From: Thermonema rossianum DSM 10300
GTDB taxonomy: Bacteria > Bacteroidota > Bacteroidia > Cytophagales > Thermonemataceae
DNA length: 64,000 bases
Assembly: GCF_000426825.1 (NCBI RefSeq)
Contig: NZ_AUGC01000001.1
Location: forward strand, 310,001-374,000
Reading direction: 5' to 3'
Below the pieces are notes generated by a model that had not been told where the DNA came from, made no database searches, and worked only from the letters and a program-made list of their open reading frames with translations. Positions 1,176-48,821 of this stretch are shown piece after piece. Within the stretch, counting starts at the first letter, position 1. Each line of letters begins with the position of its first letter. Made by a program: the position numbers and the translations under genes.

Positions 1176-2477
1176 ATGAGATACGAACGCATTGACAACC
1201 GGCTGTTTATAGAGAACCGCCGTCGTTTGGCGGAGCGCCTGCTTCCCAATTCCATAGCTGTTTTCAACTCCAACGATATTATGCCTACCAGTGCCGACGG
1301 CACCATGCCCTTCAAGCAGAATACAGACTTGTTTTATCTGACCGGTGTGGATCAAGAAGAGACCATTTTGTTGTTATATCCGGATGCCAAGGAAGAAAAA
1401 TACCGTGAAATTTTGTTTGTGCGTGAAACCAACGAGCACATAGCCATTTGGGAAGGGCATAAGCTCACCAAAGAAGAGGCTACCGAAGTTTCCGGTATCC
1501 GCACGGTCATGTGGACTTCGGAGTTCGAAAAGGTGTTCAACACCCTGATGGGCGATGCCGAACATTTGTATTTGAATACCAACGAACATCCGCGGGCAGA
1601 AGTAGTAGTGGAAACCCGTGATGCCCGTTTCATTAAATGGTGCAAAGAACGCTATCCATTGCATAGCTATCGCCGCTTGGCGCCTATCATGCGTGACTTG
1701 CGGGCTATTAAATCCGATATTGAAATTGCCCTGATACAGAAGGCTTGCAAAATTACGGAAGCCGGTTTCCGGCGCGTGCTTCAGTTCGTGAAGCCGGGCG
1801 TAAAAGAATATGAAATCGAAGCCGAATATGCGCATGAGTTTCTGCGCCGCGGCTCGCGTGGCTTTGCTTATACGCCCATTATTGCTTCGGGGGCCAATGC
1901 CTGCGTGTTGCATTACATAGACAACGACCAAGTGTGCCAAGATGGCGACCTGTTGTTGATGGACGTGGGGGCAGAGTATGCCAACTATGCCTCCGATATG
2001 ACCCGCACTATTCCGGTGAATGGACGCTTTACGCCCCGCCAACGTCAAGTATATGACGCGGTATTGCGCGTGATGCGCGGGGCTATGGATATGCTGCGCC
2101 CCGGCAACACCTTGGATGAGTACCATGCCGCCGTGGGCGAATTGATGACCAAAGAGCTCGTGGATTTGGGCTTGTTGACCATGGACGAAGTGAAAAACCA
2201 AAACCCCGATTGGCCTGCTTACAAAAAGTACTTCATGCATGGTACCTCGCACCACCTGGGCTTGGACGTGCACGATGTGGGCGACAAATACCGCAAGTTT
2301 GAACCGGGTATGGTATTTACCTGTGAACCGGGCATCTATATCCGTGAAGAAGGGCTTGGCATTCGTTTGGAAAACGATGTGGTCATTACCGGAAACGGCT
2401 TGCTTGACCTGATGGCTGACATCCCTATAGAAGCCGAGGAAATAGAAGAATTGATGAACGCTTCGGTGAAGGCATAA
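1176..2477 (+). CDS. pepP: Xaa-Pro aminopeptidase (aminopeptidase P, M24B)
   Basis: A 433-residue cytosolic metallopeptidase that removes an N-terminal residue preceding proline. Residues about 1-170 form the creatinase-like N-terminal domain and the rest is the pita-bread M24 fold. The five expected metal ligands are visible: D263 (MDVGAEY), D274 (SDMTRT), H359 (HGTSHHLGLDVHD), E384 (TCEPGIYI) and E399 (IRLENDVV). No signal peptide is seen. It is separated from nuoC by 63 nt and followed by its own hairpin terminator, so it probably ends the transcript. The length and motif order match PepP rather than the smaller methionine aminopeptidases. Confidence 0.95.
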   Translation: MRYERIDNRLFIENRRRLAERLLPNSIAVFNSNDIMPTSADGTMPFKQNTDLFYLTGVDQEETILLLYPDAKEEKYREILFVRETNEHIAIWEGHKLTKEEATEVSGIRTVMWTSEFEKVFNTLMGDAEHLYLNTNEHPRAEVVVETRDARFIKWCKERYPLHSYRRLAPIMRDLRAIKSDIEIALIQKACKITEAGFRRVLQFVKPGVKEYEIEAEYAHEFLRRGSRGFAYTPIIASGANACVLHYIDNDQVCQDGDLLLMDVGAEYANYASDMTRTIPVNGRFTPRQRQVYDAVLRVMRGAMDMLRPGNTLDEYHAAVGELMTKELVDLGLLTMDEVKNQNPDWPAYKKYFMHGTSHHLGLDVHDVGDKYRKFEPGMVFTCEPGIYIREEGLGIRLENDVVITGNGLLDLMADIPIEAEEIEELMNASVKA

Positions 2478-41210: not shown

Positions 41211-42446
41211 TCAGGGGGCTTGGGGCGCGGCGTCGGCTTCATCCCAAAACTCGGCACCGTGCAAGCCCACATAGCCGGTTTTTCCATTGAACAGCTTCAC
41301 TTCAGCCATTTCTTTCGACACCAGGTAAGCTTCTGCGTATTTCAAAGGGAGAATGGCTTGTCCCTTCCGGTTGATGAACCCATACTTGCCGTTTTGTGCA
41401 ACCCATGTGTATTCCGGAAACTGAAAATGCCATGCATCATCAAAAACAGGGGGAATCACCATCTCGCCTTGGTGGTTGATGAAGCCGAAGTGCCGGCCTT
41501 GGCGTATCATTGCCAAGCCGTTGATGAACTCAAAAGCCACCTCAAAAGGTCCGGGAATTACGACTTCGTTGCGGCGATTGATATAGAAATAACCACGCTT
41601 GTCATGAACTACGGCCAGCCCTTCGTGAAATCCGCCCCCGTAGTCATATTGTGGGGCAATGACCCATTTGCCCTTTTTATCGATAAAGCCCACCAGTGCA
41701 TCGGTGACTACCAGTGCCAAGCCCTCACGAAAAAGATCGACCTCTTCATACTGCGGGGGAATCACTTCTTTACCTTTTCGATTGATGAAACCATACAGCT
41801 CGTTGCGGCGTACAGGGGCTAAGCCTTCCCGGAAAGGACCCACTTCTTCATAAACCGGTGGCACTATTTCTTCACCTTTCGTATTGACGAACCCCCATTG
41901 GCCGTTGCGCAACACCGCAGCCCTTTTTTCGTGAAACGGCTCTATTTGTTCATAGCGTGCAGCCACTATTTCTCTTCCTTGCCGGTCGATGATGCCTTGT
42001 TTCCCGTGCAGGCTAACGACGGCATAACCATTTCGAAAAGAAGAAGCCGCCTCATAGCGGGGCGCAATAACCCACTGTCCTTGCCGGTTGATAAACCCCC
42101 ATTTTCCCTTGTGTTTCACCTTGGCCAGTCCTTCACTGAAAGCATCGGCATCGTCATACAGCAGGGCAATCACTTCCCTGCCTGAGGTGTCTATAAAACC
42201 CACACTGCCATGACGTATTACTTTGGCTAAGCCTTCGCTAAACGGCTGCACATAGTCGTATTGGCAGGGAATGCTTATTTGCTTTTGCCGGTCGCAAAAG
42301 CCCCAGCGCTCGCCTTGGCGATAAGGAAAAAGCCCCACACTCTCATCCGGGCTTCGGGAAACCGGTCGTTTGGCGCAGCCGCCAAGCAGACATAAGAGCA
42401 AAAAGCCCGTGGGCAATAGCAGGCTTAGCAAGTAGTGTTTCTTCAT
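41211..42446 (-). CDS. WG-repeat lipoprotein
   Basis: A 411-residue lipoprotein (signal ending LLGGC, cysteine 24) with about 11 WG repeats, each containing a variant of GKWGFINRQGQWVIAPRYEAASSFRNGYAVV. The repeats tile from residue 40 to 405. WG repeats form beta-rich solenoids of unknown general function and are common in Bacteroidota envelope proteins. Gene stands alone; a second protein with the same layout is encoded at 63520-62291. Confidence 0.88.
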   Translation of the reverse strand: MKKHYLLSLLLPTGFLLLCLLGGCAKRPVSRSPDESVGLFPYRQGERWGFCDRQKQISIPCQYDYVQPFSEGLAKVIRHGSVGFIDTSGREVIALLYDDADAFSEGLAKVKHKGKWGFINRQGQWVIAPRYEAASSFRNGYAVVSLHGKQGIIDRQGREIVAARYEQIEPFHEKRAAVLRNGQWGFVNTKGEEIVPPVYEEVGPFREGLAPVRRNELYGFINRKGKEVIPPQYEEVDLFREGLALVVTDALVGFIDKKGKWVIAPQYDYGGGFHEGLAVVHDKRGYFYINRRNEVVIPGPFEVAFEFINGLAMIRQGRHFGFINHQGEMVIPPVFDDAWHFQFPEYTWVAQNGKYGFINRKGQAILPLKYAEAYLVSKEMAEVKLFNGKTGYVGLHGAEFWDEADAAPQAP

Positions 42447-44832: not shown

Positions 44833-45468
44833 ATGTTTGAATACCAACAGAAAAAACCCCTTAAGTTGCTCGAATATGGGCGTAATATACAAGGGCTGGC
44901 AGAATATCTGCTCACCATTGAAGACCGGCAGAAGCGTACCGATTACGCCCATGCGTTGGTGGAGCTTATGAAAGACATGCTGCCCAACTATGGCGACGGC
45001 GAGGATGTGTATAACAAACTGTGGGACGACTTGTTTATTATGACGGACTTCCGCTTGGATGTGGATGCCCCCTTTCCCATGCCCGACCCGGAGCAGCTCA
45101 ATCGCCGCCCCGACCCCGTACCTTATCCACAAAAAGATTTGAAATACAAGCACTATGGGCGCAACATAGAGCGCTTGATTGCGATGGCAAAAACCATAGA
45201 AGACGAAGAAGAGCGCAAAATAACTTTCGCATACATCGGCAGCCTGATGAAAATGCAAAGCCTGTCGTGGAATCACGACAGTGTGGAAAATGCCGTGATT
45301 TATCAACACCTGAAAGAGATGACAGGCACCGACTTGCCTTTCTCTTTGGAAGAGGCAGAGTCATTGGGGCTTTTCGATAACCTGAGCGTGCGCAGCAGTA
45401 AAAACCGCAACGGCAACGGACACAGCAACGGCAAGCAAAATAAAAAGAAACGCAAGCGCCGCTCGTAG
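44833..45468 (+). CDS. DUF4290 family protein
   Basis: A 211-residue soluble, mostly helical protein that I recognise as DUF4290: YGRNIQGLAEYLLTIEDRQKRTDYAHALVELMKDMLPNYG and DFRLDVDAPFPMPDPEQLNRRPDPVPYPQKDLKYKHYGRNIERLI. The tail is a highly basic, N/G/K/R-rich stretch (KNRNGNGHSNGKQNKKKRKRRS) of nucleic-acid-binding character. Function unknown; family is largely restricted to Bacteroidota. Starts 14 nt after uvrD and probably shares its transcript. Confidence 0.85.
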   Translation: MFEYQQKKPLKLLEYGRNIQGLAEYLLTIEDRQKRTDYAHALVELMKDMLPNYGDGEDVYNKLWDDLFIMTDFRLDVDAPFPMPDPEQLNRRPDPVPYPQKDLKYKHYGRNIERLIAMAKTIEDEEERKITFAYIGSLMKMQSLSWNHDSVENAVIYQHLKEMTGTDLPFSLEEAESLGLFDNLSVRSSKNRNGNGHSNGKQNKKKRKRRS

Positions 45469-45492: not shown

Positions 45493-45527
45493 AAACCGGC
45501 ACTCTGTAAAGATGAGTGCCGGTTTTT
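45493..45527 (+). terminator. Terminator after the uvrD-DUF4290 operon
   Basis: ACCGGCACTC (45495-45504) pairs with GAGTGCCGGT (45514-45523), followed by TTTT. The remaining 200 nt to the next gene show nothing recognisable. Confidence 0.9.
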
Positions 45528-45732
45528 CTATTCGTGCGATAAGAGCAAGCGAGGCGCCCCTTCGGTTGGCACAGCACAAGCTACCTTCTAAACGGTGAAA
45601 GGCGCAAGACAACACCAATCCGGCAAGCCGGGCGGCTTCCTTTTTCCTGAAAAAGACAAACTGACTGAATGTTTTACGTCAAATATTAGGTCTATTACTC
45701 GGTTTTTTTTAAGTTCATGAAAAAGTATAACC

Positions 45733-46614
45733 ATGAAAAGCATACTCCGGGCGCAAAAAGCTGCCAAGGTCGTGGAAGACCTGTTGAGCCCCTACCGGGA
45801 GGGCAACCACTTGTATATCCAAAACCTGCCTCTTGACGACTTGCTGAAGCTACTGGCACAAATACGCGAACAAGATGAGTTCATCGATAAAGGAAGGAAA
45901 GGGCTAAATATTTTATTAGCGGTGTTGATAATCCTTTTGGTGGGATGTGTTTTTCTAATGGCCGCTGTGTCGGTAGTTGCCGGCATTATAGGTTTTGTAC
46001 TGCTTATTGCTCTCACTGTTTTTTACTTCGTTGCCGATTCACAATTGAAGCGTGCCGACGTAAACAATACACTTTCGCAGTATGTACCTGAATTGCTGGA
46101 GCGTTTGCGTTTCGACCTCGCCGAAGAGGCACCTCTTGCGTTGACAGCCTTTGTGGCTGAGCGATACTCCAAAGAGGCATTTAAAAAGAAAACTAAACGG
46201 GGAAGAACACGCACCAAGTATTACGAAATATCCCCTTCGGTACAAATAGACGCCGTTCTGGCAGATAAGTCGCGCCTGCGTGCCATCATCCATGAATACC
46301 CTTATGAAAAGACCGTAACCCGGGTAAACTATCGTGGTAAGGTTAAAACCAAAACGAAGTACGGCTTGCGTTTTGTGCATGAGGTGAACTTGGCAATTCC
46401 CACCGAAATGACCTTGACGGCTTCACCGGTTGCAGGTATCAAAACAAAAATCAAAGAAGGCGAGAAGCGCGACAAAGTGCGTCTGGCAAAAAAAGAGAAG
46501 CACAAAACCGGCACAGACAAGATAGCGCTTATACACTTGGCCCCTTCGGTCGATATTACCATGGAACTGCTCTACCGGGCTTATCAGATGCTGAAGCCCG
46601 GGCAGGCTGCATAA
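45733..46614 (+). CDS. Tandem-paralogue membrane protein A
   Basis: A 293-residue protein with no family I recognise. It shares its layout with the next two genes: a 30-residue helix ending near Y21 and HLYIQ; a conserved motif NLPLDDLLKLLAQIREQDEFIDK; two membrane helices (residues about 58-100); a helical NNTLSQYVPELLERLRFDL; a C-terminal domain with YYEISPSVQIDAVLADKSRLRAIIHEY, GLRFVHEVNLAIP, and IHLAPSVDITMELLYRAYQ. The tail has a lysine-rich insert (KIKEGEKRDKVRLAKKEKHK). No signal peptide; the two helices suggest a membrane hairpin with both ends cytoplasmic. Confidence 0.8.
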   Translation: MKSILRAQKAAKVVEDLLSPYREGNHLYIQNLPLDDLLKLLAQIREQDEFIDKGRKGLNILLAVLIILLVGCVFLMAAVSVVAGIIGFVLLIALTVFYFVADSQLKRADVNNTLSQYVPELLERLRFDLAEEAPLALTAFVAERYSKEAFKKKTKRGRTRTKYYEISPSVQIDAVLADKSRLRAIIHEYPYEKTVTRVNYRGKVKTKTKYGLRFVHEVNLAIPTEMTLTASPVAGIKTKIKEGEKRDKVRLAKKEKHKTGTDKIALIHLAPSVDITMELLYRAYQMLKPGQAA

Positions 46615-46743
46615 GCCGCCTCAATCACAGGGAAGCCCACAGGCATCTGCACAACGAGGCTGCCTTTTCACTGTCATGTCAGTTTTGGGTAGTTACCATC
46701 TGTGGGCTTTCGCTTCTCACCACGTCTTTGCAAAGAGAGTACC

Positions 46744-47733
46744 ATGGCATCAATGAAAGAAATTAGAGAAATGATCAAAGCCGGCTTTGCCAACCTTGCG
46801 CTCTTGAGCCTCTACCGCACAGGCGACCAAGTACACATACAGGAAATGCCGCCGGATGAGTTGTTGACTTTGTTGAATAAGGTGCGTAAGCAGGATGTGC
46901 GATTTAAAAATCTCTATGATGCCCCTGTAAGTAATTTCATCATTACGGTGGGGACAATAGGTGTGTTCATATTATTGCTGCCGCTTGCATTTATTTACTT
47001 TAACCCGCTTTCCTATAAAGGGATGAGTGCAGCGGCAACGATATTGGTAGTGTTTCTTTGCGCAATACTTGCCATTTATGCAGGATGGGTGCTTGCATCG
47101 GCAGTTACAAATCTTCTGATGAATCTTAGCATAAACAACACGCTTTCGAAGTATGCCCCCGCTTTGATGAAGCGTTTGCATACTGAGCTGCACAGGGATG
47201 CAACCATCGACCTGAGTGCTTCGGTTATTCCATTGTATAGCAGCAGTCGTAAGAAAAGGTTCCGTTCGGAAACATACGGGCAGTTGCCCGTCCCCTTGCA
47301 ACAACTATTGGATACGGAAGAGAAAGTCGAAAACGAAGGCTGGCGTTATTACTATGAATGGTCGCCTTCTTTGCAGTTGCATGTTACTCTTTCAGACAAT
47401 ACACGCCTGTGTGTTGCCATTCATGAGTTCGGGCGTGAGCATTGCATAGTAATCGGAACCGGTAAGAACGCAGAGAGGACTTACATTTATTTTTCTTTTT
47501 TTGTCCATGAAGTTGTATTGCTTCCTGCCGGTGTGCCGGATGCGTTCAATCAGCTGACCGGTGAAGAGATAGAAGAGCTGGTAAGGAAGGGGCAGGCAGT
47601 GCGCCTGTTCGAATTGGAAGAAGTAGAGTCTGATAAGAATACAATTCATCTTGAAGCGGCACCGTCGTTGGAGGTTACCGAAAAGCTGCTGTATGAGGCG
47701 TATCATCGCTTTCATAGTCCGCAGAACTATTGA
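46744..47733 (+). CDS. Tandem-paralogue membrane protein B
   Basis: A 329-residue paralogue of the preceding gene, aligned by eye: VHIQEMPPDELLTLLNKVRKQD (A: LYIQNLPLDDLLKLLAQIREQD), a membrane pair near 62-120, SINNTLSKYAPALMKRLHTEL (A: NNTLSQYVPELLERLRFDL), YYYEWSPSLQLHVTLSDNTRLCVAIHEF, FFVHEVVLLPAG, and IHLEAAPSLEVTEKLLYEAYHRF. It carries an extra segment (RKKRFRSETYGQLPVPLQQLLDTEEKVENEG). ATG 46744 was used; ATG 46753 would give exactly the same 30-residue N-terminal spacing as A and C, so it may be the real start. Function unknown. Confidence 0.78.
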   Translation: MASMKEIREMIKAGFANLALLSLYRTGDQVHIQEMPPDELLTLLNKVRKQDVRFKNLYDAPVSNFIITVGTIGVFILLLPLAFIYFNPLSYKGMSAAATILVVFLCAILAIYAGWVLASAVTNLLMNLSINNTLSKYAPALMKRLHTELHRDATIDLSASVIPLYSSSRKKRFRSETYGQLPVPLQQLLDTEEKVENEGWRYYYEWSPSLQLHVTLSDNTRLCVAIHEFGREHCIVIGTGKNAERTYIYFSFFVHEVVLLPAGVPDAFNQLTGEEIEELVRKGQAVRLFELEEVESDKNTIHLEAAPSLEVTEKLLYEAYHRFHSPQNY

Positions 47734-47860
47734 ATAAATGCTTTTTGGCAGCTGCTCTGTCTTGCTTAAACTAAACACGATTTGCTTCGAAGATACCTTA
47801 TGTGATGATGGTTATTTCATGAGGAAAGTATGTTAAATTTTAAAGTAAAAAAATAAGTCT

Positions 47861-48718
47861 ATGATTAACATTACAAAAGCCGGCAACGCAAGAAGAGCTA
47901 TTCTGAATATGATAGAACCTTATATGCAGGAGAACTATTTTCATTTACATGCTGTGCCCCTGCGACGAATTATGTCCATCTTGGAAGAGGTCAAACGAGA
48001 AGATGAAGTGGTATCAAAAGCCAAGCGGGAGCTTTCTTTTTTAGGAATGCTCACAGTTGCACTTTTTATACTGGCTTTAATTATAATAGGCGTCTATCCT
48101 ATTGATAAGGACATGGAGGGATTCACGCTTGTCATGTTCCCCCTTGCTTCTTCAGCAGTTATATGCTTGATTCTATATGTCTCCTTATCATGGAGTGTGT
48201 ACAAGTCACTCGGTTTCAATTACTTGCTGATGTTGTATGCATACGACTTTTTGAGTCATTTCCGCCACGAGCTTAATCAAGAAGCACCCGCCGGGCTTCA
48301 GGTTTACACAGACTTTTACGACAGCCCGGATTTGGAAAAGGAGAAGCAGCGTGCCGATGGATACAATATCACGAAATACTTCATTTCGCCGGCAGTGAAA
48401 CTTGAAGCTTCTTTTACAGATGGCTCAAAGCTTGTTGCCTGTTTGAATGCCTACCCGATTGTGATGATGGGATACAAGAAGGAGACGAAGCATCGGTTGC
48501 TATTTGTGCATGAGGTGACATTGAACACAACGGATGGGTGGAAATACGAAATAGCAAGCGAAGACCGGTCAAAAGAAGTGACTCTAAGCAAAGAGGAAGA
48601 AATAAAAGTGCCTAAAAGACCCAATCAATACTTTCTTTTCATAAGCACCCTGCCTTCCGCAGAGTATGCCATAGAACTAACCTTGAAAGCCCGCGAGAAG
48701 CAAAAAGCAGCACAATGA
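47861..48718 (+). CDS. Tandem-paralogue membrane protein C
   Basis: A 285-residue third paralogue: FHLHAVPLRRIMSILEEVKREDEVVSKAKR, two membrane stretches near 56-115, NYLLMLYAYDFLSHFRHELNQEAPAGL, YFISPAVKLEASFTDGSKLVACLNAY, LLFVHEVTLNT and LPSAEYAIELTLKAREKQK. It is the most diverged and AT-richest of the three; the motif HEV and the SPS/SPA element are kept. The lead spacing to the conserved motif is again 30 residues. About 127 nt separate it from B, equal to the A-B spacing. A terminator follows. Confidence 0.8.
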   Translation: MINITKAGNARRAILNMIEPYMQENYFHLHAVPLRRIMSILEEVKREDEVVSKAKRELSFLGMLTVALFILALIIIGVYPIDKDMEGFTLVMFPLASSAVICLILYVSLSWSVYKSLGFNYLLMLYAYDFLSHFRHELNQEAPAGLQVYTDFYDSPDLEKEKQRADGYNITKYFISPAVKLEASFTDGSKLVACLNAYPIVMMGYKKETKHRLLFVHEVTLNTTDGWKYEIASEDRSKEVTLSKEEEIKVPKRPNQYFLFISTLPSAEYAIELTLKAREKQKAAQ

Positions 48719-48744: not shown

Positions 48745-48747
48745 GTG

Positions 48748-48821
48748 CTCCTCAGGCTGGGCTCGAACCAGCGACCCCCTGATTAACAGTCAGGTGCTCT
48801 AACCAGCTGAGCTACTGAGGA
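48748..48821 (-). tRNA. tRNA-Asn (GUU)
   Basis: A 74-nt cloverleaf on the minus strand: acceptor TCCTCAG/CTGAGGA, D loop AGCTCAGCTGGTTAGAGC, anticodon stem CCTGA-CTGTTAA-TCAGG with anticodon GTT, variable loop GGTCG, T arm CTGGTTCGAGCCCAG, discriminator G. The CCA end is not encoded. Anticodon GTT reads Asn. Confidence 0.97.

Follow-up and report, generated by a model that had tools for sequence, protein, structure and literature searches.

The adhesin-glycosylating GtfA-GtfB pair consists of a GT4 (PF00534/PF13439) enzyme and an accessory partner subunit, and it provides a point of reference for the genes described here. GT4 domains also serve as effectors in conflict systems, according to PMC8195603. 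The subject of the present analysis is a set of three tandem genes, here named A, B and C, in a 64,000-nucleotide stretch of the genome of Thermonema rossianum DSM 10300 (hereafter the window). Their products belong to a family, M, which is defined here by sequence homology to members located in a glycosyltransferase (GT) operon. Family M probably helps to organise an undescribed sugar-attachment system, and a functional tie of M to two of the enzymes, GT1 and GT2, is very likely.

In its operon setting M is found in a conserved order, which runs GT1 (a GT4 glycosyltransferase), M, an optional second M, a small zinc-finger protein, GT2 (a second GT4 enzyme), an optional lipoprotein-like protein and GT3. 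This order occurs in Bacteroidota, Acidobacteriota and Actinomycetota. Genomes G002, G054, G039, G052, G273, G189, G080 and G037 show all or part of it, as do 10 of 12 M loci recovered by a pattern scan of a named genome collection. GT1 lies immediately 5' of M in 10/12 scan loci, in 2/2 further Bacteroidota from a phylum-wide search and in 6 of the 14 related genomes with M. Among actinomycetes, GT1, M, the zinc-finger gene (Zn), GT2 and GT3 follow each other on one strand in 14/14 regions, which come from 14 of 56 M-positive genomes and include one that nearly repeats locus L068. The actinomycete region L110 has the arrangement GT1-M-Zn-M-Zn-GT2-GT3, and tandem duplication therefore recurs. 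When the open reading frames (ORFs) of 30 operon loci were clustered, the lipoprotein-like gene was present in nine (L074, L075, L017, L019, L059, L060, L061, L064 and L066), and no further neighbour common to phyla was found. Located between GT2 and GT3, it encodes 200-220 residues with a signal-peptide-like start and the core 'FKlR...LLWKVK...KisdNEEn.NPY'; the L066 protein has no Pfam family at an expectation value (E) <= 1, and none of the accessory operon parts rises above a curated family cut-off. No description of the GT1-M-Zn-GT2-GT3 operon was found in the open-access papers searched. An earlier, sequence-only reading of the window had proposed A, B and C as its best candidate for an undescribed system, with a conserved tandem array of fixed spacing as the test. 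The first part stands, in that nothing in the searches made describes the system; a fixed-spacing array as the unit is not supported, as the conserved context is the operon, inside which M mostly has one or two copies.

Co-occurrence links the same genes across genomes. A 12-row profile, A2, detects M in 14 of 96 relatives, the window's genome included, and GT1, at a cut-off of E <= 1e-40 fixed beforehand, is present in the identical 14 genomes, in eight of which (G000, G003, G004, G005, G007, G021, G078 and G084) GT1 and M are on separate contigs. GT2 is found in 13/96 relatives, all within the 14, and is absent from G003, a genome that is 81% complete. The zinc protein was detected by a single-sequence query in 8/96 relatives, again all within the 14, a query that undercounts, as the G080 zinc protein was found by profile. 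With kinship ignored, the hypergeometric p-values for co-occurrence with M are 4e-17 for GT1, 3e-15 for GT2 and 2e-8 for the zinc protein, and in the five GTDB families with a mixture of positive and negative genomes M and GT1 are present or absent together without exception. Within the window's genome itself, GT1 is found at G000:C5:17022-18173 (43%, 1e-104), GT2 at C1:67925-69049 on the minus strand (46%, 2e-101) and the zinc protein at C1:69079-69477, directly upstream of GT2, with a product that ends GGFFDS. The neighbours of this GT1, which include dehydrogenase E1-like and phosphatase-like genes, resemble those of G002 by eye, and this likeness fits the split of an older cluster.

GT1 and GT2 of L057 score 85.3 and 72.4 bits, respectively, on PF00534, against a cut-off of 26.4. 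In alignments of GT1 (22 rows) and GT2 (17 rows), the last glutamate of what we take to be the catalytic-site glutamate motif of the GT4 C-terminal domain, E-x7-E, is at least 90% conserved, and at the first position of the motif GT1 has G and GT2 has D. The naming of GT3 draws in part on its start, GxGLGHLtR, which is similar to starts in MurG-type enzymes.

The zinc protein has the consensus C....GfFvl..C...a...C..Cgr..C..H......C.eC, followed by an aromatic stretch and then by an acidic tail. All of the distinct tails (32/32) end in Asp-Ser, and between 4 and 14 of the last 30 residues are acidic. In G054 and G039 the order is GT1-M-GT2, with no zinc gene between, and M itself ends FDS. For the G054 M tail the match to the zinc profile extends as far as the final residue (E 4e-4; 0/200 shuffles do as well), and that of G039 gives a weaker match (E 0.02; 5/200 shuffles). 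From their sequences, both may be read as natural fusions of the zinc-protein tail to M.

The feature of M that could receive such a tail is a ladder of lysines. In the AlphaFold2 model of A the longest hairpin is formed by strands 181-198 and 204-223, and the motif GKxKxKxK follows its turn, so that the lysines alternate along one strand. This motif is present in 17/18 M proteins that adjoin GT1 as against 5/16 unlinked ones (p 2e-4, with kinship ignored); the five include A and neither B nor C. Of the actinomycete members, 14/15 have the looser form G[KR]xKxKxK. An association of ladder with tail over 14 genomes gave p 0.033 from a hand tally, in which G021 was near-canonical and G037 tail-less, and was set aside as too weak to lean on.

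The homology of A, B and C is clear. With A as the tblastn query, C is matched at 7.9e-21, and the match to B comes in two pieces, of 4.6e-12 and 1.2e-9. When their C-terminal parts are compared without the membrane hairpin, local BLOSUM62 scores surpass 500/500 shuffles for all three pairs (z 31.4, 23.3 and 8.2), and hydropathy gives each protein two hydrophobic segments. A 34-row family tree unites A, B and C as a single clade (100/100), in which the terminal branch of A is short, at 0.32 changes per column, and those of B and C are long, at 1.8 and 1.99. They are also the only M copies found when their genome is searched with A. The earlier account of three tandem, diverged paralogues of a two-helix membrane protein is thus borne out, including the above-chance pairwise homology on which it had been staked and the shared motifs SPS/SPS/SPA, FVHEV and, in A and B, PS..LL..AY. 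Its view that the similar gaps reflect a duplicated unit is not supported: the A-B and B-C spacers align with a local score of 15 (shuffled mean 9.1, standard deviation 1.7; 3/200 shuffles as high), and because homology of the spacers is not clear their near-equal lengths (129 and 127 nucleotides) may be a coincidence. Different partners for the separate copies are possible: B and C have lost the lysine motif, which is retained in A and in the majority of operon copies. For gene B, a GTG start at 46702 is likewise open.

The failure of the sequence-only reading to recognise a family is matched by the Pfam and NCBIfam searches, in which A, B and C have only sub-cut-off matches. Over 16 family members Pfam returned four families at E <= 0.01, namely DUF2207_C (5e-5), LPG_synthase_TM (1e-4), Phage_holin_3_6 and 7tm_7, each in 1/16 members and none above its curated cut-off, and these can be read as matches to hydrophobic segments. 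PHROGs gave two weak matches, on A and C, and a PDB search by profile reached a best E of 0.5. The 16-row family alignment has a single invariant column, Asp178 of A. Single-sequence tblastn with A matched 10 of 98 relatives, among which seven genomes other than that of the window hold true homologues; the matches in G051 and G064 were dropped as transporter ORFs, peptide-transporter-like by eye. In this tblastn search G002, G007, G084 and G054 were matched at 2e-19 to 1e-8. The A2 profile scores A at 2.6e-88, B at 3.2e-80 and C at 3.8e-70, all three being rows of that profile, so that the single-sequence matches are the independent evidence. Further afield, the 12 scan loci belong to Cytophagales-type metagenome-assembled genomes (MAGs), Raineya orbicola, a Bacteroidales MAG, two Acidobacteriota MAGs, an 'Erysipelotrichia' MAG and two Actinomadura species. 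The phylum-wide search, which scored at most five candidates per genome and may undercount, found M in 3/395 genomes, the window's own among them, and the order around Actinomadura oligospora has M in 56/297 genomes.

The AlphaFold2 model of A, built from a 16-row alignment, has a predicted local distance difference test score (pLDDT) of 86.7 and a predicted template modelling score (pTM) of 0.80. Its elements are a helix at 2-21, a strand at 26-32, helices at 34-78 and 81-107 that make up the membrane hairpin, a helix at 112-124, a long antiparallel beta meander and a helix at 273-287. An Actinomadura member that lacks the hairpin is modelled with the same order of elements (pLDDT 91.6, pTM 0.86), and by hydropathy a membrane segment is present in 0/15 actinomycete proteins from L100-L113 and in 0/2 from L065 and L068. 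The membrane hairpin is therefore not what defines these proteins. Some Cytophagales members have four membrane segments by hydropathy. In genome G003, locus L051 carries a second M homologue (1498-2427, minus strand), in which the ladder is degenerate and a membrane hairpin is not evident; this suggests that the hairpin has been lost in Bacteroidota too. For the window proteins we infer that both termini are cytoplasmic, because the loop between the helices is short and uncharged, the flanks are basic and the relatives are soluble.

The structural searches for a known family gave no confident PDB match, Foldseek finding nothing at E <= 1e-3 for either the A model or the hairpin-free model, and what they did give are likenesses of fold below that threshold. 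The A model aligns with the actin capping protein beta subunit 7ds4_B (Z 8.6, root-mean-square deviation 4.3, 129 aligned; no Foldseek match at E <= 1e-3) and with the type III secretion chaperone SycT, 2bsi (Z 6.7, 107 aligned). The hairpin-free model has its highest Z, 5.1, with OmpA and reaches 4.7 with the secretion chaperone VecA, and no capping protein is among the matches listed for it. Capping protein beta and the type III secretion chaperones share with M the succession of helix, antiparallel beta sheet and helix, a likeness of fold only, and on the strength of the models it may reflect no more than a common arrangement.

We put at about even odds (roughly 0.5) the reading in which M belongs to a widespread glycosyltransferase system as a non-catalytic scaffold that links the enzymes to the acidic tail of the zinc protein, with B and C as diverged copies. 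A two-helix hairpin, an insert in a domain that is otherwise soluble, would hold M against the cytoplasmic membrane on the inner side, and the actinomycete proteins, without the hairpin, would be soluble. The helix-beta-meander-helix domain would act as the scaffold, and the ladder of lysines that runs along its long beta hairpin would grip the acidic, Asp-Ser-ended tail of the zinc protein. M would in this way bring the zinc protein together with GT1 and GT2, or bring the two enzymes to a shared substrate, and both enzymes would work on one common product. The unit would have been split over the genome in the window's species and M triplicated, A retaining ancestral features and B and C being fast-diverging, altered copies.

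Several observations weigh against this scaffold reading. In the window's genome M is unlinked to GT1 and GT2, with no M homologue in the 18-kb stretches around either. G078 and G003 have M and GT1, yet the zinc protein was not found there and their M is without the ladder; in G037 the zinc protein was not found by the single-sequence query, though M keeps the ladder. An Asp-Ser-ended ORF was seen in none of the eight stretches searched in these three genomes. As B, C and most unlinked copies are without the ladder, it cannot be the whole function of M. The proposed contact of tail and ladder rests on charge and on the fusions, and acidic tails and basic strands are common. The zinc profile contains the tail, and may favour tail-bearing proteins among those found. 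The A and Actinomadura models share one 16-protein alignment and are not independent. Finally, GT3 is taken as a glycosyltransferase from a weak match to the MJ1255/VC2487 family, at 16.4 bits against a cut-off of 195.9.

A doubtful alternative is a unit for an envelope glycolipid or polysaccharide, in which GT1 to GT3 would add sugars sequentially to a lipid carrier, M would be the anchor with its ladder bound to anionic lipid or phosphate, and the zinc protein would be a regulator. GT1 and GT2 exceed the Pfam cut-offs for both Glycos_transf_1 and Glyco_transf_4, the Bacteroidota and Acidobacteriota forms of M are membrane proteins, and a predicted secreted protein or lipoprotein is encoded at 9/30 operon loci, all of which suit such a unit. 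The clustered neighbours, however, include no recurring flippase, polymerase or ligase, the actinomycete M proteins have no membrane segment, and the invariant end of the zinc protein would be left unexplained.

That end would have a ready explanation if the zinc protein were the acceptor in a protein glycosylation system, its C-terminal serine, or a nearby serine or threonine, being modified by GT1 and GT2 while M presents the tail. The Asp-Ser end common to all 32 tails, the transfer of the tail onto M in two genomes and the fact that M strictly co-occurs with GT1 and GT2 would be consistent with this, although a conserved end could equally be a docking peptide, and the other serines and threonines of the tail are not obviously conserved; we consider it unlikely. 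Equally speculative is the corresponding extension of the scaffold reading to a widespread bacterial protein-modification system, in which two or three glycosyltransferases would glycosylate the Asp-Ser-ended tail and M would be the platform that binds this tail, membrane-located or, among actinomycetes, cytosolic. Were the tail glycosylated, extra copies of M such as B and C would retarget or regulate the system.

A conflict system, anti-phage or otherwise, that uses a GT4 effector is highly improbable. GT2 comes close to the family PF20706 GT4-conflict, at 24.3 bits with a cut-off of 26, and the distribution is patchy, as the phylum-wide count of 3/395 genomes illustrates. Against this, PADLOC at E <= 0.01 has no match for A, B, C, GT1, GT2, the zinc proteins, GT3 or the lipoprotein-like protein, a search of 72,556 plasmid records with GT1 gave nothing at E <= 1e-40, the clustered neighbours include no recurring NTPase or toxin gene, and the operon is vertically stable enough to have retained its order in 14/14 actinomycete regions. 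Lineage-specific duplication of some unrelated membrane protein, independent of the glycosyltransferases, a reading for which one might cite that none of these enzymes is encoded beside A, B and C in the window and that M is unlinked to GT1 in 8/14 related genomes, is strongly disfavoured and hardly credible, given M and GT1 in the identical 14/96 genomes and their adjacency in several phyla.

A five-gene order in three phyla, strict co-occurrence and an invariant protein end are together a strong sign of a real pathway. Three anonymous membrane proteins have in this way led to the questions of what GT1 and GT2 glycosylate and why the zinc protein must end in Asp-Ser.

The features of the region are collected in Table 1. 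Promoter and terminator scans gave 5 promoter-like sites against 4.8 expected and 6 terminator-like sites against 3.3 expected. A hairpin just past C was rejected as a terminator for A-B-C, as it is reported on the minus strand only, where the tRNA-Asn gene runs. Upstream of A, a hairpin followed by T's was noted by eye at 45502-45540, just past the gene at 44833-45468; it is not in the scan, which has a loop limit of 8. Elsewhere in the window, 41211-42446 on the minus strand encodes a 411-residue protein of 'GFINRKGQ-VI-P-Y' repeats, WG-repeat-like by eye. Among the M proteins of other genomes, that of L087 (G052:C81; 6154-7563, minus strand) has 469 residues and a C-terminal extension that is helix-hairpin-helix-like by eye ('TTIGGIGRATEAKLYGAGVFTFAQLANM'), and its gene adjoins one for a 278-residue protein that is phosphatase-like by eye.

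Table 1. Coordinates, in the window, of genes A, B and C, their spacers and the features of A.
Feature	Position	Strand	Description
Gene A	45733..46614	+	M-family protein, 293 residues; canonical, GKxKxKxK present, short tree branch
Membrane hairpin of A	45901..46041	+	About residues 57-103; from hydropathy and model; an insert, not in actinomycete members
C-terminal domain of A	46057..46611	+	Residues 109-293; helix, antiparallel beta meander, helix in the AlphaFold2 model
Asp178 of A	46264..46266	+	Invariant in 16-row alignment
Lysine ladder GKVKTKTK of A	46336..46359	+	Residues 202-209, second strand of long beta hairpin; missing from B and C
A-B spacer	46615..46743		129 nucleotides
Gene B	46744..47733	+	Diverged M paralogue, 329 residues from ATG; without lysine ladder
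B-C spacer	47734..47860		127 nucleotides; homology to A-B spacer not clear
Gene C	47861..48718	+	Diverged M paralogue, 285 residues; without lysine ladder; hairpin region shortened
tRNA-Asn	48747-48821	minus	Downstream of C

Set beside described systems, the operon differs from each in some part. A gene that we take to be LemA-like, whose best NCBIfam match is MamQ (E 1e-20, below cut-off), lies directly 5' of GT1 in G273 and G189 (L074 5567-6121 and L075 8927-9481). Such a gene is not seen in the other operon loci, and M has no LemA-associated family above cut-off. With respect to the PF20706 GT4-conflict systems described in PMC8195603, the recurring operon neighbours at the 30 loci include no STAND NTPase, TIR or caspase partner. 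The GtfA-GtfB pair differs in that M does not have a glycosyltransferase fold, and neither an Asp-Ser-ended zinc-finger protein nor a membrane hairpin is known to belong to GtfA-GtfB. What the two would share is the placing of two GT-B/GT4 enzymes beside a non-catalytic partner.

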